NCBI GenBank assembly: GCA_903844385.1
Contig: CAIMTJ010000018.1
Coordinates: 124,001 to 188,000, forward strand
DNA: 64,000 nucleotides
Direction: 5' to 3'
Source of the DNA: an uncultured Burkholderiales bacterium
GTDB taxonomy: Bacteria; Pseudomonadota; Gammaproteobacteria; Burkholderiales; Burkholderiaceae_C
A program made the translations under genes and the position numbers. The notes under the pieces are model-generated. The model was not told where the DNA came from and did not search any database. It was given only the letters and a program-made list of their open reading frames with translations. Below are positions 41,618 through 48,097 of this stretch, one piece after another (the stretch's first letter is position 1; each line of letters begins with the position of its first letter).

Positions 41618-44600
41618 TCACTGCGAGACATGGATCCCTAAAAATGCATTCCTCAACTGCGCTGGGGTGATCCCCCAGCTGTACATGCTCGCTGCGATCT
41701 CACTGAATGAGGCACCGGTGGACTGTAAATTCAAAGCCGCAGACTCGACCTCTTGGGGCAAGTAATGAATGCCCGCACCCCAATACGCCGGCAGCAAAGC
41801 GATCATGGGGGTCTGGATTGAATGATACACAAGGCCACCATTGGCTTCGTAACGCGACTGAATCACAGCGACGGGCACACCCACTGCGTTGGCCAAGTCC
41901 GCGGGACTCACCCCATATTGATCCATGTTGGCGACCCACTGCTGATCACTCAGGCCCGGATTGGCCAATAGATAATTCAAAATGGCGGTTGACGAAAAAT
42001 TGGCGGTGACATAACGTTTCACATAGTTCGTGGCAAGTGCAGTGAACTGCGTCTTGGACAAGGCACTCATCTGTAGAGCGGTCAATGCGCTGATTTGCTC
42101 TGGACCCAAGCCACTCAACTGAAGAGTCGTCAAGGCACTCAACTGTGAGGGAAGGATCGCTTGAAATACAAACGGGCTGATTTGCGACAGTTGTAAGGCA
42201 TTCAAGGCTTGAAGTTGTGCCGTATTCATGGCGTTCAATTGCGCTGCGTTCAAGAGAGAAAAAACGCTGGCACTGAGATTTTGAACGGCAAGTGCGGACA
42301 AGTTGCTGATCCCATCAGGACTCAGACTCGCGACAGTTTGAGCCGCAACAGACCTCCATTGCGTCGCACTCAAGGCAGCCATTTGTGCACGACTCCATCC
42401 ACTGATTTGCGCGGGTGAGAGTGTGCTCAACTGCAGACTTGTCAGTGACTGCAACTGTTTGACTGAAAACGCGGCCCACTGTAAGCTTGACAATCGCGCC
42501 AAGTCCGCTGCAGGAATAAAACCAATGGCAGTTAAAGACAAGGCCTGGAGTGTCGCGATGGGGAAAGCCGCCAGGGTACTGGGCTGGAAAAAGGCAAATT
42601 GAGCATCATTGAGATCGGCGATCTGAAATGGTCTCATGCTCGCCACTTGGTTGGGCGTTAAGGCAGCCACCTGAGCGTTGGTCAAGGCTTTGATTTGGGA
42701 GGTGTTCAGATTAACCACTTGCAGCGGTGTGAGGGCTGCGATCAAGAGCGGAGAAATAAGGGGGATCTGGGTGGGTGTGATTTGTGCAATTTGTTGAACA
42801 CTGACCAAGGAGAATTGAACGCCCGACATGGTGAGCAAATCTGTGTTGCTAAGCGGCGGATCTTCTGGCGGTGGGGGTGCAGGGCTATCGTCACCGGGCA
42901 AGCCAACAATTTGGGTGCTGGACGCTTGGGTGGTGACACTGCCTTTGAAGACATTGCCAGGATGGGTCAAGGTGATGCTGCCCGCACCGGCATTGAGGTT
43001 GGCGTTACCCGTGACGCTCACTGCAGCGGTCTGGGTGATATTGCCCCCGCCGCTGTTGAGTGTGAGACCTCCCCCCACACTGGTCGCGCCCAGACTCAAA
43101 GCACCCACACTTTGGAGATTCAAGTCCGAGCTCGCACTCACGCTGCCCAAACTCAATGCCTGTGTGTTGCGAAGGCTCACACTCGAACCACTGAGGCTCA
43201 CCTGGCCTTGAAACAAATTGCCAACATTGCTGACACTGATGCCTGCACCTTGGCCTGACAAGCTCGCACTCAGGGTCGCACTTGATGAGGCACTGAGCGT
43301 GGTCGCGCTCGCTTGTGCAATAGCGCCCGCGCTTGAGCTCACGCTCAATGTGCCGGTACTGCTCAAATTCCCCAAGGTGAGCACACCAGAGTTGCTGCTG
43401 AGCGTGGTGCTGCCACTCACCACAACACTGCCTGCCAAGCCTTGCGTGAAACTCGAATTCACCGTGAAGTTGCCGTTGACATTGAGTGTGCCACCCGACT
43501 GGCTCCAAGACGCCAAATTCACCCCACCAGACCCCACGTTCAAGGTGCCGGCAGTCATGGTCAGACTGCCCAGATTGCCCAAGCTGCTCAAATTGACTGC
43601 ACCACTCTCAGCCGCACCCACCACGGTGGAGCCAAAGCTCACATTGGTATTGGCCGGTATCAACACATTGGAGACGTTGGACAAGTCAGGGACTGCGCCC
43701 GCGGCCCAATTGCTGGGATCAAACCAGTTGCCCGTTGCAGCGCCCACCCAGGAGACTGAATTGAGACGAGAAATTGTGATGGGGGCCATGGAAAAATTCG
43801 CGAGCGTGTAATTGGTGGCCAACCCGGTGCCATTGCCCAAGACCAAACCGCTTGAACTGCTCCAAGCGGTGGTCGCCCCCACATCTTTGCTGTTGGCAGT
43901 GGCAGTTCCGGCCGTGATGGACAACGTTTCTCCATTGACCCCCGCCACCGTCAGACTGCCCGCATTAAAGATGGCACTCCCATCGTAGGTTTTGCTGCCC
44001 CCCAGAGTCACTGGGGCTGCTGTCACGCTCATCGCAACGGCGCTGCCCAGCGCATTGAACGTATAGTTGGTGGAACTCAGACCCGAGTTGTAGGTCAAAG
44101 GATAAGCACCCACACTGGAGGCTGAACTCGGCATGTGATTGAACGTGGCGACGCCTGTGAGTCCAGTCAACCGAGTGTCTGAGGTGAGCAAGGTGCTGCC
44201 GCCAGCATTTGCAGCCGTATTGAAGCTGTAGGTGACTGCACTGGGTGTTGATCCATAAACATTCGTGAGACCGGTGGTGGGCACCACATAGAGCTGAGAT
44301 TTTCCAACGCTCAAGCTGCCTGAGTCGAGCACCACTTTATAGAAATTGGTTTGTCCACTCACATTTCCGGCGATAGCGTACAGATACGACCCCACATTGC
44401 TGCCAGCGGCATAGGTCGTGCTGATTGCTCCCGGACTGAACGACACATTGCTGCTCGTATCCGGACCGATGAGGCCCAGCAAACTGTAACTCACACTGGG
44501 GAAATCAGCCCCATAGGTCACGCTCGAGACCGAGGGCTCGACCAACAACATCGTGGGGGCACTAGTTGACATCGGACCATTTGGACCCATGACCCAATGG

Positions 44601-47600
44601 TTGGTGAAATCAAACCCCGTCAAATTGGCTTGAACCCTGGCTTGGGCTGGGCTCAGCTGACTGCTTTGTGAAGCCGTCCCTGAACCCGAGACTCCCAGGG
44701 GGGTCGAAAAGGAAGTGCCGGCGTTGGTGGAAATGAGACCACTCGCATGGGAGTTGGAAACGCTACCGTTGCTGATGTCACCAATCAAGGAGCCTGCAAA
44801 GGCACTCGCTGGGGCCGTGACGCTGCCACTGGCATAGTCTGTGGTGAGGGTGCCATTGACGCTGTTCAAAATGTTTCGACCCACCAAGCCACCCGCCGCT
44901 GCGGTGGAGGCTGGCGAATAGTTTCCCACGCTCGTGAGGGTGACCAAGGCCGAGCTGTAAGAGTTGCTGATACTTGACGCGCTGCTGCCGACCAGGCCGC
45001 CGATCTGATAGGTCAACTTGCCACTGACTTGGCCACTCACGTCAGTATCGGAGATCGTGCTCGAGCCAACCGTCGTCCCCACGAGGCCACCGACACTGAA
45101 TTTGGTCGAATCGTTCGTTGCACCATTGAACTGCACCGTTTCATTGGTCAATCCCAAATTGCGAATCAACCCGTTGCTGCCCAGCACCGAGATGAAACCC
45201 ACATTTTCCAGAGCAGTGGGCGTCAAATTGGCCGCTGTCACGATCGATAAATTGGCAATGGTGTGACCCAACCCATCCAAGCGAATGGCAGCGGGTACGC
45301 TAAAAAACGCGCCTTGCGACGTGTGGGAGTACCCAATCGGGACAAACCCAGTGAGCCAGGTGTAGGGGCTTGCTGACCAAGTGCTGGTCGCGCTTGCATC
45401 GATGTTGCTGCCCAGTACAAAGTTCTTCTGAGTGGGACTGCTCACGGAGAATTGTCCACTCAAGCCCTGCAAAGTCATGACTGCCGGTGTGGTGGTGGCG
45501 TCCGAGCGGGCACCCAATGCATTGATCACCACCCAAGTGGTTCGAGTGGGGGAATTGAGGGTAAAGAAATTGGGGCCCGCATTGCCCAAGCTCACGGGTG
45601 CATTCACGTAATAGTTCGAGCTGCTGCCATAGCCCAATTGCAATTGAGCCACTTGAGTGGCATCGGCAATGGCGTTGCTCACCCAACTGTAGTTGGCTGC
45701 TATGGGCTGATTGATGAAGATGCTGGCCGCAGCCGATAAATTGAGCAAATGGCTGGTGTAGCTGATCGGATTGTCGATCGTGATATTGCCCGTGCCCGTG
45801 AAGGACGTGGCCGCCAGAGTCGGCGAGTTGCTCACCGTGACGTTTAAATTGCTCGGCGCCGTGACGGTGACGTTCCCAGCACTGAGCCAAGATTGCAAAT
45901 CGAGGGCATTGATGTTGGATTTATTGGTCAAGCTCAGGGTACCAGCGTTGACCAAGGGGCTGTTGGCGGCCAGGGTTGCGCTGCCACTGAGTACCAAGGT
46001 GCCGGCAGTGATGGTGGTCGTGCCGGTATAGCTGTTGTTGGCGGTCATGAAGAGCGAGTTTCCCGGCATATTCATTCCAACATTGCCAGCACCCGTGATG
46101 ATGCCAGACCACACGGAGGTGGCCCCTGCATTGATGTTCAAGCTCGAGCCCTTGGACAAGGTGACGGTGGAGCCTGTATTGATCACTTGCCCCGATGAGG
46201 TCAACGTCAACGCATTGCCCGAGTTGATCGAAAAGGGGCTGGCCACGGTGATGGTTCCCAAGGACGTGCCCGCTGTTTGATCATTGGTGGTGGTGATGGT
46301 GATGTTGTTTTGTGCAATCAAGTTTTGCAATGTATTCACATTGATGGTCGTGAAGTTGTCTCCACTCGTTGGGGTCAGGCTCGAGTTGATGTTGAGGCCA
46401 GCTGCGTCAGCATCGGTACTGATCGTGACATTGGCAGGATCGAGCAACCATGTGCCGGTGTTGCCATGTGGCGCCGAGGTGCTCACTTGTGCGCCATCGA
46501 CCTGGAGTTGCGAGCCCGATGTCTCGACTTGTCCACCATGGCCCGCATTTTTTCCACCCTGGGCTTTGATGACCCCTTGCACCGACGTCAGACTGCCTGG
46601 GTTGTTCAGATCGCTTTTGAGCACCACGGTGCCGCCATCGCCGTCGACTGTGGCACTGGCGTCCACCTGAGCTTGGGGTTGCATCGTGACACGAGTGGCT
46701 GGACGCAAGTCGCTTGCGCCTTGCCAAGCACCACCCACCAAAATTTGCCCCCCACCCAAAGGGCCTGTGGCATTCATGACGCTGGTGCTTGCCAAGTTGA
46801 TCTCATTGGCCTCTAAAACGATGCTTCCTCCTTTGGCCGTCATGCTGCTCGCTTCGAGCGTTCCGGCGTTGTTGATGACACCGCCTTGGAGTTGATTCAA
46901 GGCGTAGGCAGACAATAGGATTTGACCGCCAGGCGCCTTGACCGCCAGTTGATTGGAGATCAAACTCGCGATGGTGCTGGGTGTGGTGGTGATACCCGAC
47001 AAACTGTTGCCACCCACCACGTTCAGGGTGATGGCGTCGCCAGACGCCATGGCAACGGTGCCCAAATTGGCAACCACCACTCCCGCATTTCTGACTTGTG
47101 GTGCAAGCAAGGCGATATAACTGCCCATGGCGGCGTTGAGACTGCCCTCGTTGATGATGGCCCCCTTTGCACCATTTCGAGTGAACGTCCAGCGCCCCAA
47201 CATGAAGTCCTCATCCGACAGGCTTGAGGTGGTGACACTGAGGGCGCCCACATCCACACTGGCAGTAGGGGAGAAATAAAACCCACTGGGGTTGCTCAAA
47301 AATAGTTGGCCGTTGGACTTGATGTGCCCAAATATTTGACTCGGGTTGCTGTCCAAGATGCGATTCAAGAGACTTGAACTCGCCGAGGGTTGGATGAAAT
47401 TGACTTGAGCGTTTTGTCCTACATTGAAGCTCTCCCAGTTGATCACCGCACTGGGTGTGGTTTGGAGCACAGTCATTTGGGGAGCGTTGCTTTGAAGAGT
47501 CTGCGACACATTGACGCTGCCTTGTGCCACTGCCGAGAGTTTGGGCAACTGCGCACTCAAAGGCGGGGCTGTCTGAGTTTGGGCAAGTGCGACCCCGCCC

Positions 47601-47749
47601 AGTAGCCCATTCAATGCCCCCAGCCCTGAGCTCAATAGTTGACGCCAGTGCAGCCGCGGCAAGACAGCGACTGTGCGCTCGTTGGAGGCAGCCATGGATG
47701 GCAAGCCTCGTCGCAGCCCTCTTAAAGTAGCCAGAAACATCGCTCGCAT
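41618..47749 (-). CDS. Large two-partner-secretion (filamentous hemagglutinin-type) exoprotein with octapeptide array
   Basis: The start is ATG 47749, with GGGGAGA 6 nt upstream, giving 2043 residues. An extended signal peptide ends near residue 56 (GGVALAQTQ). The TPS secretion domain follows to about residue 290, with VINWESFNVGQNAQVNFIQP, LNRILDSNPSQIFGHIKSNG and SNPSGFYFSPTASVDVGALS. The middle is Ser/Gly/Thr-rich beta-helix-like, with GLUG-type segments (VGGLVGTTVGSSTISDT), MBG/YDG-like parts (YGSTPSAVTYSF, KTYDGSAIFNAGSL) and NWFDPSNWAAGAVPD. After a Pro-rich hinge (SPAPPPPEDPPL) come 32 gap-free octapeptides (residues 1657-1912), then a 131-residue tail. No TpsB/FhaC transporter gene is adjacent. 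The role is probably adhesion or contact, inferred from the family. Confidence 0.9.
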   Translation of the reverse strand: MRAMFLATLRGLRRGLPSMAASNERTVAVLPRLHWRQLLSSGLGALNGLLGGVALAQTQTAPPLSAQLPKLSAVAQGSVNVSQTLQSNAPQMTVLQTTPSAVINWESFNVGQNAQVNFIQPSASSSLLNRILDSNPSQIFGHIKSNGQLFLSNPSGFYFSPTASVDVGALSVTTSSLSDEDFMLGRWTFTRNGAKGAIINEGSLNAAMGSYIALLAPQVRNAGVVVANLGTVAMASGDAITLNVVGGNSLSGITTTPSTIASLISNQLAVKAPGGQILLSAYALNQLQGGVINNAGTLEASSMTAKGGSIVLEANEINLASTSVMNATGPLGGGQILVGGAWQGASDLRPATRVTMQPQAQVDASATVDGDGGTVVLKSDLNNPGSLTSVQGVIKAQGGKNAGHGGQVETSGSQLQVDGAQVSTSAPHGNTGTWLLDPANVTISTDADAAGLNINSSLTPTSGDNFTTINVNTLQNLIAQNNITITTTNDQTAGTSLGTITVASPFSINSGNALTLTSSGQVINTGSTVTLSKGSSLNINAGATSVWSGIITGAGNVGMNMPGNSLFMTANNSYTGTTTITAGTLVLSGSATLAANSPLVNAGTLSLTNKSNINALDLQSWLSAGNVTVTAPSNLNVTVSNSPTLAATSFTGTGNITIDNPISYTSHLLNLSAAASIFINQPIAANYSWVSNAIADATQVAQLQLGYGSSSNYYVNAPVSLGNAGPNFFTLNSPTRTTWVVINALGARSDATTTPAVMTLQGLSGQFSVSSPTQKNFVLGSNIDASATSTWSASPYTWLTGFVPIGYSHTSQGAFFSVPAAIRLDGLGHTIANLSIVTAANLTPTALENVGFISVLGSNGLIRNLGLTNETVQFNGATNDSTKFSVGGLVGTTVGSSTISDTDVSGQVSGKLTYQIGGLVGSSASSISNSYSSALVTLTSVGNYSPASTAAAGGLVGRNILNSVNGTLTTDYASGSVTAPASAFAGSLIGDISNGSVSNSHASGLISTNAGTSFSTPLGVSGSGTASQSSQLSPAQARVQANLTGFDFTNHWVMGPNGPMSTSAPTMLLVEPSVSSVTYGADFPSVSYSLLGLIGPDTSSNVSFSPGAISTTYAAGSNVGSYLYAIAGNVSGQTNFYKVVLDSGSLSVGKSQLYVVPTTGLTNVYGSTPSAVTYSFNTAANAGGSTLLTSDTRLTGLTGVATFNHMPSSASSVGAYPLTYNSGLSSTNYTFNALGSAVAMSVTAAPVTLGGSKTYDGSAIFNAGSLTVAGVNGETLSITAGTATANSKDVGATTAWSSSSGLVLGNGTGLATNYTLANFSMAPITISRLNSVSWVGAATGNWFDPSNWAAGAVPDLSNVSNVLIPANTNVSFGSTVVGAAESGAVNLSSLGNLGSLTMTAGTLNVGSGGVNLASWSQSGGTLNVNGNFTVNSSFTQGLAGSVVVSGSTTLSSNSGVLTLGNLSSTGTLSVSSSAGAIAQASATTLSASSSATLSASLSGQGAGISVSNVGNLFQGQVSLSGSSVSLRNTQALSLGSVSASSDLNLQSVGALSLGATSVGGGLTLNSGGGNITQTAAVSVTGNANLNAGAGSITLTHPGNVFKGSVTTQASSTQIVGLPGDDSPAPPPPEDPPLSNTDLLTMSGVQFSLVSVQQIAQITPTQIPLISPLLIAALTPLQVVNLNTSQIKALTNAQVAALTPNQVASMRPFQIADLNDAQFAFFQPSTLAAFPIATLQALSLTAIGFIPAADLARLSSLQWAAFSVKQLQSLTSLQLSTLSPAQISGWSRAQMAALSATQWRSVAAQTVASLSPDGISNLSALAVQNLSASVFSLLNAAQLNAMNTAQLQALNALQLSQISPFVFQAILPSQLSALTTLQLSGLGPEQISALTALQMSALSKTQFTALATNYVKRYVTANFSSTAILNYLLANPGLSDQQWVANMDQYGVSPADLANAVGVPVAVIQSRYEANGGLVYHSIQTPMIALLPAYWGAGIHYLPQEVESAALNLQSTGASFSEIAASMYSWGITPAQLRNAFLGIHVSQ
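42014..42781 (-). repeat. 32-copy octapeptide (24-bp) repeat region
   Basis: The coding sequence reads as 32 consecutive octads without insertion or deletion. Examples are LTPLQVVN, LNTSQIKA, LTNAQVAA, LSPAQISG, LNAAQLNA, LTTLQLSG and LTALQMSA. The consensus is L-(T/S/N)-x-x-Q-(I/L/V)-x-A. The DNA copies have diverged, so the array is old and kept by selection on the protein rather than a recent DNA expansion. Confidence 0.9.
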
Positions 47750-48097
47750 CTTGTGTCTCCCCATCTGAAAATGGCACCCTGTGCCGTTCAAAGAAGTTCA
47801 CCCGCTTGTCTGCTCTCAAGAGGATGAGAAAAAGGCAATTCGTTATAATAACTATAATGAATTACTATTTTCGGTATTAATATAGCATAAAGTAGTATTT
47901 ATTGGGAATTTTTGATGAATTGAGGCCCAAAGTACACGCGAAGTTGATTGCCATGGTGGCTCCAGAGCGCCAGGGGGCTTGAGCGCAGGACTGCAAAAAA
48001 TCCAACTCGATTGTGTGAGATTTTTGATGCACATCAAAACGCCGAGCAGTTCGAGCACCTACCATTCAAGCATCCACTCCAACGAAGAGGTGACTTC
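47750..48097. other. Divergent regulatory region between exoprotein and usp genes
   Basis: About 350 bp without a gene. The centre (47836-47915) is strikingly AT-rich with several TATAAT/TATATT-like hexamers and probably holds the leftward exoprotein promoter. The right third carries a perfect FNR-type box and a candidate -10 for the universal stress protein gene. Confidence 0.55.
48024..48037 (+). promoter_or_regulatory. FNR-type box upstream of usp
   Basis: TTGATGCACATCAA matches TTGAT-N4-ATCAA at all ten positions. A TACCAT at 48060-48065 has its centre 32 bp downstream of the box centre, which is the spacing of class II FNR-activated promoters (box at about -41.5). Confidence 0.75.

Follow-up and report, generated by a model that had tools for sequence, protein, structure and literature searches.

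Octapeptide repeats of the ALTTAQ type in a Limnohabitans two-partner-secretion exoprotein: predicted fold, relatives and candidate roles

Background

What is the role of a long, unbroken row of eight-residue repeats at the far end of a secreted bacterial protein? The question is raised by a locus within a 64,000-nucleotide stretch of DNA from a freshwater Limnohabitans bacterium, which is called the window here. An earlier note, written from the sequence alone, had described the C-terminal part of a two-partner-secretion (TPS) exoprotein as a gap-free series of 32 octapeptides behind a Pro-rich hinge, and had proposed that each unit starts a short helix, that selection on structure keeps the period, and that the resulting solenoid is a display or binding head. 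For this repeat, which Pfam names, the analysis predicts a fold, proposes a superhelical period and a modifying enzyme, and distinguishes two chemical classes.

The exoprotein and its octad array

The protein is classed as a TPS exoprotein (TpsA) by a TPS domain (PF05860, 114.8 bits; cut-off 33.5) together with an NPXG region near the N terminus (TIGR01901, 70.2 bits; cut-off 29.1). Its features are as follows.

41618..47791, minus strand: two-partner-secretion exoprotein (TpsA), 2057 aa from the first TTG (open reading frame, PF05860, TIGR01901)
46796..47527, minus strand: TPS secretion domain, residues 89-332 (Pfam PF05860, E 8.5e-33)
42929..43126, minus strand: DUF5649 repeat, the strongest among three stretches, within the repetitive segment upstream of the hinge (PF18886, E 3.6e-16)
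42854..42883, minus strand: Pro-rich hinge, residues 1637-1646 (sequence)
42014..42829, minus strand: ALTTAQ octad array of 34 units, residues 1655-1926, the last 32 of which were counted before (PF20080, periodicity, predicted helices)
41621..42013, minus strand: C-terminal domain, residues 1927-2057, helical in a low-confidence model

The length of 2043 residues given previously would fit a start 14 residues downstream of the TTG that yields 2057. Although a TpsA protein usually (not universally) has its TpsB partner next door, none adjoins the gene at this locus, and the single ShlB-type TpsB in the same genome, which is about 89% complete, lies at an end of another contig (C56). Genes for a hemerythrin and a universal stress protein, both confirmed by Pfam, are found near the exoprotein frame; further open reading frames nearby look, on reading of the sequence, like primase and RpoD. 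The C-terminal domain has no Pfam match above cut-off, and among 399 genomes of the order a homolog is present in just one, the source genome itself.

The array is real and free of gaps. Positions 42014-42781 (768 bp) encode residues 1671-1926, which is exactly 32 x 8 with no insertion or deletion; two extra octads fit upstream (residues 1655-1670), giving 34 units, and a looser pattern spans 36. Compared with 2000 composition shuffles, the period of eight stands out by 21.8 SD and is matched by none of them, and the runners-up among periods 5 to 13 are 12 (7.3 SD) and 10 (3.2 SD). The proposed pattern L-(T/S/N)-x-x-Q-(I/L/V)-x-A holds as a tendency and not as a strict rule. Within the 32 window octads, position 1 is L in 20, position 2 is S, T or N in 24, and position 6 is I, L, V, F, W or M in all 32; Q is missing from position 5 in 11 units (present in 21), and A occupies position 8 in 14. 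Ser and Thr together make up 61% of position 2 and 33% of position 7. At the DNA level the copies are strongly diverged, as claimed, with a mean pairwise identity of 38% over 24 bp and 79% for the best pair, and the hinge is likewise found ahead of the array.

A named repeat family and its spread

The array belongs to the ALTTAQ_rpt family (PF20080), given both its uninterrupted period of eight and its score against the curated Pfam cut-off of 26.4 bits: 62.8 bits for residues 1640-2057 and 49.5 bits for the whole protein. All four PF20080 matches in the source genome fall in this exoprotein. The earlier note would have been refuted by a characterized repeat family with known function; the named family exists, yet no described function was found for it in the literature searched, which excluded preprints and most subscription journals. 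That search returned no paper with the words ALTTAQ or HeliScrew; the string pf20080 does occur, apparently as catalogue numbers.

Similar arrays do occur in other bacteria, as the earlier note had stated. PF20080 matches 28 of 398 genomes of the phylum, 25 of them above cut-off, and a canonical array segment searched against genome contigs detects at least 65 loci; among the matches listed are Pseudomonas, Roseateles, Duganella, Massilia, Nitrospirillum, Rhizobium, Sinorhizobium, Rhodobacter, a Magnetococcales MAG, and others. Plasmids carry the array in 15 of 72,556 records (11 of the 15 from Rhizobium), whereas 50,697 phage records, searched at E 1e-5, contain no relative. Caulobacter vibrioides is the sole PF20080-positive among 14 control genomes and one of two controls with a glycosyltransferase of family GT41. 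Open frames with arrays reach lengths of up to 6361 aa in Limnohabitans (G022:C29 and G031:C474). The family in general shares the octad of the window array, but most other arrays among the matches listed are Thr-rich at position 3 and fill most of their open reading frame, whereas at that position the window array has little Thr/Ser and much Pro, and it is carried by a TPS exoprotein.

Predicted fold

AlphaFold2 was run on the C-terminal 418 residues of the window protein (38 alignment rows) and on a distant array of the canonical kind, that of a second Limnohabitans protein, L046 (26 rows); the alignments combine arrays in arbitrary superhelical phase. For the window protein the model has a mean pLDDT of 83.9 and a pTM of 0.68, and for L046 the values are 89.3 and 0.78. 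The 34 window octads are predicted to form 33 helices, the final two octads sharing one, and pLDDT in blocks along the array is 86-97, except for the last octad (block mean 53). In the L046 model, 34 octads form 32 helices of at least four residues plus two of three residues. Disorder, the outcome that would have spoken against the idea of short helices in a solenoid unlike the preceding part of the protein, is not predicted; instead, two distant models give a helix per octad nearly throughout. Moreover, the predicted helices start at about position 3, so that the Thr or Ser of position 2 stands at the N-cap place, as had been guessed. The short-helix fold of the array is therefore well supported by prediction. 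The C-terminal domain is also predicted to be helical, at pLDDT 45-81.

By sequence, the closest solved chain is 9zem, "HeliScrew4" (120 aa), with E 3.1e-14 for the single sequence and 1.5e-30 for a profile. It is composed of octads of the LTPEQIAA kind, like the window array, and is aligned over residues 6-118; unlike the window array, it is an isolated short chain, and the likeness is one of sequence and not of compared folds. Its name and sequence indicate that it is probably a designed protein. It is not among the best 50 Foldseek matches of either model, perhaps being newer than that copy of the database.

A candidate superhelical period

Each octad was treated as one letter in 42 selected loci, and the recurrence of T/S at position 3 was found to peak near lags 7, 10, 17, and 24. 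The best period is 3.44 octads in six Limnohabitans loci, 3.42 in one Pseudomonas locus, 3.38 in nine from Rhizobiales, 3.44 in eight other loci (mostly Alphaproteobacteria), and 3.40 in 14 other Burkholderiales; in all five groups it exceeds 30 of 30 octad shuffles. Hydropathy at position 4 has a period of 3.38-3.40 in four groups, and in the Limnohabitans giants it is weak, at 3.52, with a power barely above shuffles. About 3.4 octads (about 27 residues) may thus correspond to one superhelical turn, a reading taken from sequence recurrence, and at this pitch the 34 octads of the window would make about ten turns.

The glutamine of position 5 counts against the 3.4-octad reading: its best periods are 5.58-5.66 octads in four groups and 8.0 in Rhizobiales, and its power is greater than that of position 3 in all five groups. 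The Magnetococcales array L141 alternates every two octads and not every 3.4. Block duplication also contributes to the recurrence, as is evident when pairs with more than 50% flanking DNA identity are dropped from 21 pooled Thr-type loci: in these filtered sets, which have no shuffle control of their own, the period of 3.40 persists, the power at position 4 drops from 0.83 to 0.42, and lag 17 is lost. For loci with low T/S at position 3, a pool of eight (1468 octads, the window included, with L133 and L143 shared with the earlier groups) gives a position-4 period of 3.38 with a power of 0.47, the highest of 12 shuffles being 0.17, and position 3 is without a period. No octad-level period is detectable in the window array taken alone or in three exoprotein-borne Limnohabitans loci pooled (192 octads). 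Arrays of the five groups recur strongly at 17 octads (136 residues), partly from block duplication, and the 5.6-octad recurrence of the position-5 glutamine is one third of 17.

Conservation within Limnohabitans

The C-terminal 418 residues were searched against 61 genomes (37 Limnohabitans, including the source, and 24 from other families). Matches are present in 23, all Limnohabitans, and in none of the 24 from other families. Among the matches listed, only two extend far into the C-terminal domain, namely G031 (89% identity along the full query) and G033 (57% over query residues 241-418).

Selection was measured on a single ortholog pair, the window and G031, aligned over 505 codons with zero gaps. 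In this pair dN/dS is 0.30 for the array, 0.19 before the hinge, and 0.18 for the C-terminal domain, and no octad has been gained or lost. The array is consequently under purifying selection, in keeping with the claim that structure is selected, and the same values for this one pair rule out a neutral remnant. Positions 5, 6, and 8 of the octad are best kept (amino-acid identity 97, 97, and 94%), and position 4 is least kept (65%, dN/dS 0.86).

At the G033 counterpart (L038 4458-5207), a frame of 249 residues replaces the exoprotein. This frame opens with a segment resembling a signal peptide and with the first part of the TPS region, and it continues directly into the final octads, followed by the C-terminal domain. 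Unless the assembly is at fault here, the gene has lost its interior by a natural deletion and kept the C-terminal domain, and the seeming retention of that domain without the array slightly favors the array as a support for it.

Glycosyltransferase genes beside sister arrays

When open reading frames around the arrays are clustered, the commonest neighbor is a protein with TPR repeats and a Glyco_transf_41 (GT41) domain, present at 24 of 75 array loci; Pfam confirms this architecture in all six array-linked enzymes checked. By tblastn, GT41 is found at 28 of the 75, namely 24 of 64 named loci (the 65 without a duplicated one) plus 4 of 11 Limnohabitans regions. For 24 of these 28, a distance of 0.65-1.7 kb separates the catalytic part of the enzyme from the outermost octad, the enzyme being encoded on either side of the array and on either strand. 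Chance would give 0.3 to 1.9 of 64 loci, assuming 1-6 GT41 genes per 4 Mb, and about 1 of 64 with up to three per genome, against the 24 observed, although these loci do not count as independent, four of them being syntenic Pseudomonas. The absence of GT41 is often real, since in 12 of the 40 named loci without it the array is flanked on each side by 3 kb or more. Three of the 15 plasmid records were opened, and tblastn finds GT41 in all three, adjacent to the array in two from Rhizobium. In the third, from Pseudomonas asturiensis (L163 11203-24354), GT41 is three genes away from an array gene annotated as heme utilization protein, and the order is array gene, two hypothetical genes, TPR/GT41, TolC, HlyD, and type I permease.

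Two known systems resemble parts of this arrangement. In HMW1/HMW1C, a GT41 enzyme acts as third partner on a TPS adhesin (PMC3983070); HMW1 is, like the window protein, a TPS exoprotein, and its enzyme is of the family found near the sister arrays, but HMW1C acts on Asn and lacks a TPR fold, and the window locus has no GT41 nearby. Caulobacter FlmG contains TPR and GT-B domains and modifies Ser/Thr of flagellin in the cytoplasm (PMC7591256). The array-linked enzymes checked likewise combine TPR with a glycosyltransferase domain, in their case GT41, but the substrate of FlmG is flagellin. If the GT41 link is true, it would connect giant repeat proteins of many Pseudomonadota with cytoplasmic O-glycosylation, for which the examples in these sources are flagellin (O-linked) and, by an N-linked route, the HMW1 adhesin.

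Two classes of array

The composition of position 3 separates most GT41-linked arrays from the window array. In the 28 GT41-linked loci, T/S fills 59-98% of the units at this position, compared with 19% in the window. Five exoprotein-borne sets (the window, its ortholog L037, L044, L048, and L050) have 8-23% T/S and 31-35% Pro there, and no GT41 was seen near any of them. L044 is a TpsA with a TPS domain, a Pro-rich array, and an adjoining TpsB gene; in L048 and L050, part of the protein carries YDG or MBG domains, and a neighbor of L048 clusters with an open reading frame of L044. None of the nine scored loci below 45% T/S has GT41 in the stretch examined, and many above 45% also lack it. Scored by genome (26 of the 28 PF20080-positive ones), position-3 T/S exceeds 40% in 17 of 19 with GT41 versus none of seven without (Fisher 5.5e-5), but 16 of the 19 belong to one family, so that the independent support is weak; the two exceptions are the source genome of the window and G406. 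Eight further GT41-bearing stretches, picked because both matches share a contig, include seven at 72-92%; the eighth, L152, is at 36% with GT41 less than 1 kb away, which counts against a strict class rule.

It may be, as a tentative reading that falls short of an even chance, that the family is a widespread, screw-shaped scaffold of bacteria with two forms, a Thr-type decorated by GT41 and an acceptor-poor Pro-type that stands bare on TPS fibers. Thr-type arrays would be made without a signal peptide and exported by a type I system, and by eye the octads of most GT41-linked giants begin within about 15 residues of a Met. The linked GT41 would add at most one O-glycan per octad, and these glycans would be set out on the 3.4-octad screw, in the fashion of a stiff bacterial mucin. 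The switch between forms would then be marked by Pro in place of Thr at a single helix position. The window array has neither a Thr/Ser majority at position 3 nor a GT41 gene nearby.

Role of the window array

The best explanation, which has about an even chance of being right, is that the window array is a bare, rigid, screw-shaped spacer at the end of a TPS fiber, where it carries the helical C-terminal domain. The exoprotein would be exported unfolded through the unlinked TpsB and would then fold outside the cell. Each octad, L-(T/S)-x-x-Q-phi-x-A, would form one short helix with the T/S of position 2 at the N-cap place, and helix after helix would coil into an unbroken screw with about 3.4 octads to the turn. 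The rod that we infer would hold the C-terminal domain away from the fiber, beyond the Pro-rich hinge. The array is expected to be unglycosylated, because it is Pro-rich with few Thr/Ser at position 3 and no GT41 is nearby.

The earlier proposal of a display or binding head seems less likely than not, a spacer being slightly favored over it. In such a head the exposed face of the array would bind glycans or a protein of some surface, much as mesothelin, the nearest fold found, binds CA-125 in cell adhesion. Mesothelin chains are the top Foldseek matches of both models (PDB 7ued, 8cx3, and others), and for L046 all seven matches with E <= 1e-3 are mesothelin, at probability 0.99-1.00. For the window model, however, mesothelin ranks first with a best E of only 1.3e-3, no match reaching 1e-3, and in both models its TM-scores are 0.15-0.37 and its rmsd 8-14 A. 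The superhelix therefore probably differs, and a likeness is claimed for the local, short-helix build alone. Mesothelin is described as a right-handed solenoid whose 24 short helices form nine layers (PMC10035497), which by our division makes about 2.7 helices per layer versus about 3.4 octads per turn in ALTTAQ arrays, and it is absent from the best 60 of 133 profile matches to solved chains. The rapid change at position 4 between orthologs is in favor of a binding head, as is the array's faster evolution than its flanks, such as a binding surface might show.

O-glycosylation of the array, in which a cytoplasmic GT41 enzyme would modify its Ser/Thr ahead of export, on the model of HMW1/HMW1C, is improbable. 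It would be in line with the GT41 genes beside the sister arrays and opened plasmid loci, with the frequent Ser/Thr at positions 2 and 7, and with the two TPR-GT41 genes of the source genome; the action of HMW1C on a TPS adhesin leaves it some room. However, both of those genes are on contig C30 (L150), to which all GT41 matches of this genome are confined, away from the window; they lie beside two ABC-transporter genes, and the contig contains no array and no flagellin match. The distant GT41 and the low position-3 T/S, well below all 28 GT41-linked loci and below the later L152, thus disfavor glycosylation relative to a bare spacer. Finally, a leucine-rich-repeat (LRR) solenoid with a 24-residue period read at one third can be dismissed despite profile matches to LRR chains down to 5.7e-15, which probably arise because 24 = 3 x 8 makes the leucines coincide, as neither AlphaFold2 model has a strand, both have a helix per octad nearly throughout, and HeliScrew4 is by far the best profile match.

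Other neighbors of the arrays

Flagellin genes lie near Limnohabitans giant array genes at L039, L040, L043, and L046 (L013 and L127 cover the sites of L039 and L040 again), and also at L086, L090, L126, and L132, the last two at 27% identity; clustering adds L128. No other compared locus has one, which rules out flagellin as a common neighbor. Metalloprotease-like or RTX proteins are encoded near array genes at L039 12165-14843, L104 1484-4627, and L139 17602-20922. Near Rhizobiales arrays a UDP-galactopyranose mutase recurs (L096, L100, L114, L118, L122, and L162), at five loci by clustering, one of them confirmed by Pfam, and at one more by annotation, as if a galactofuranose glycan were involved.
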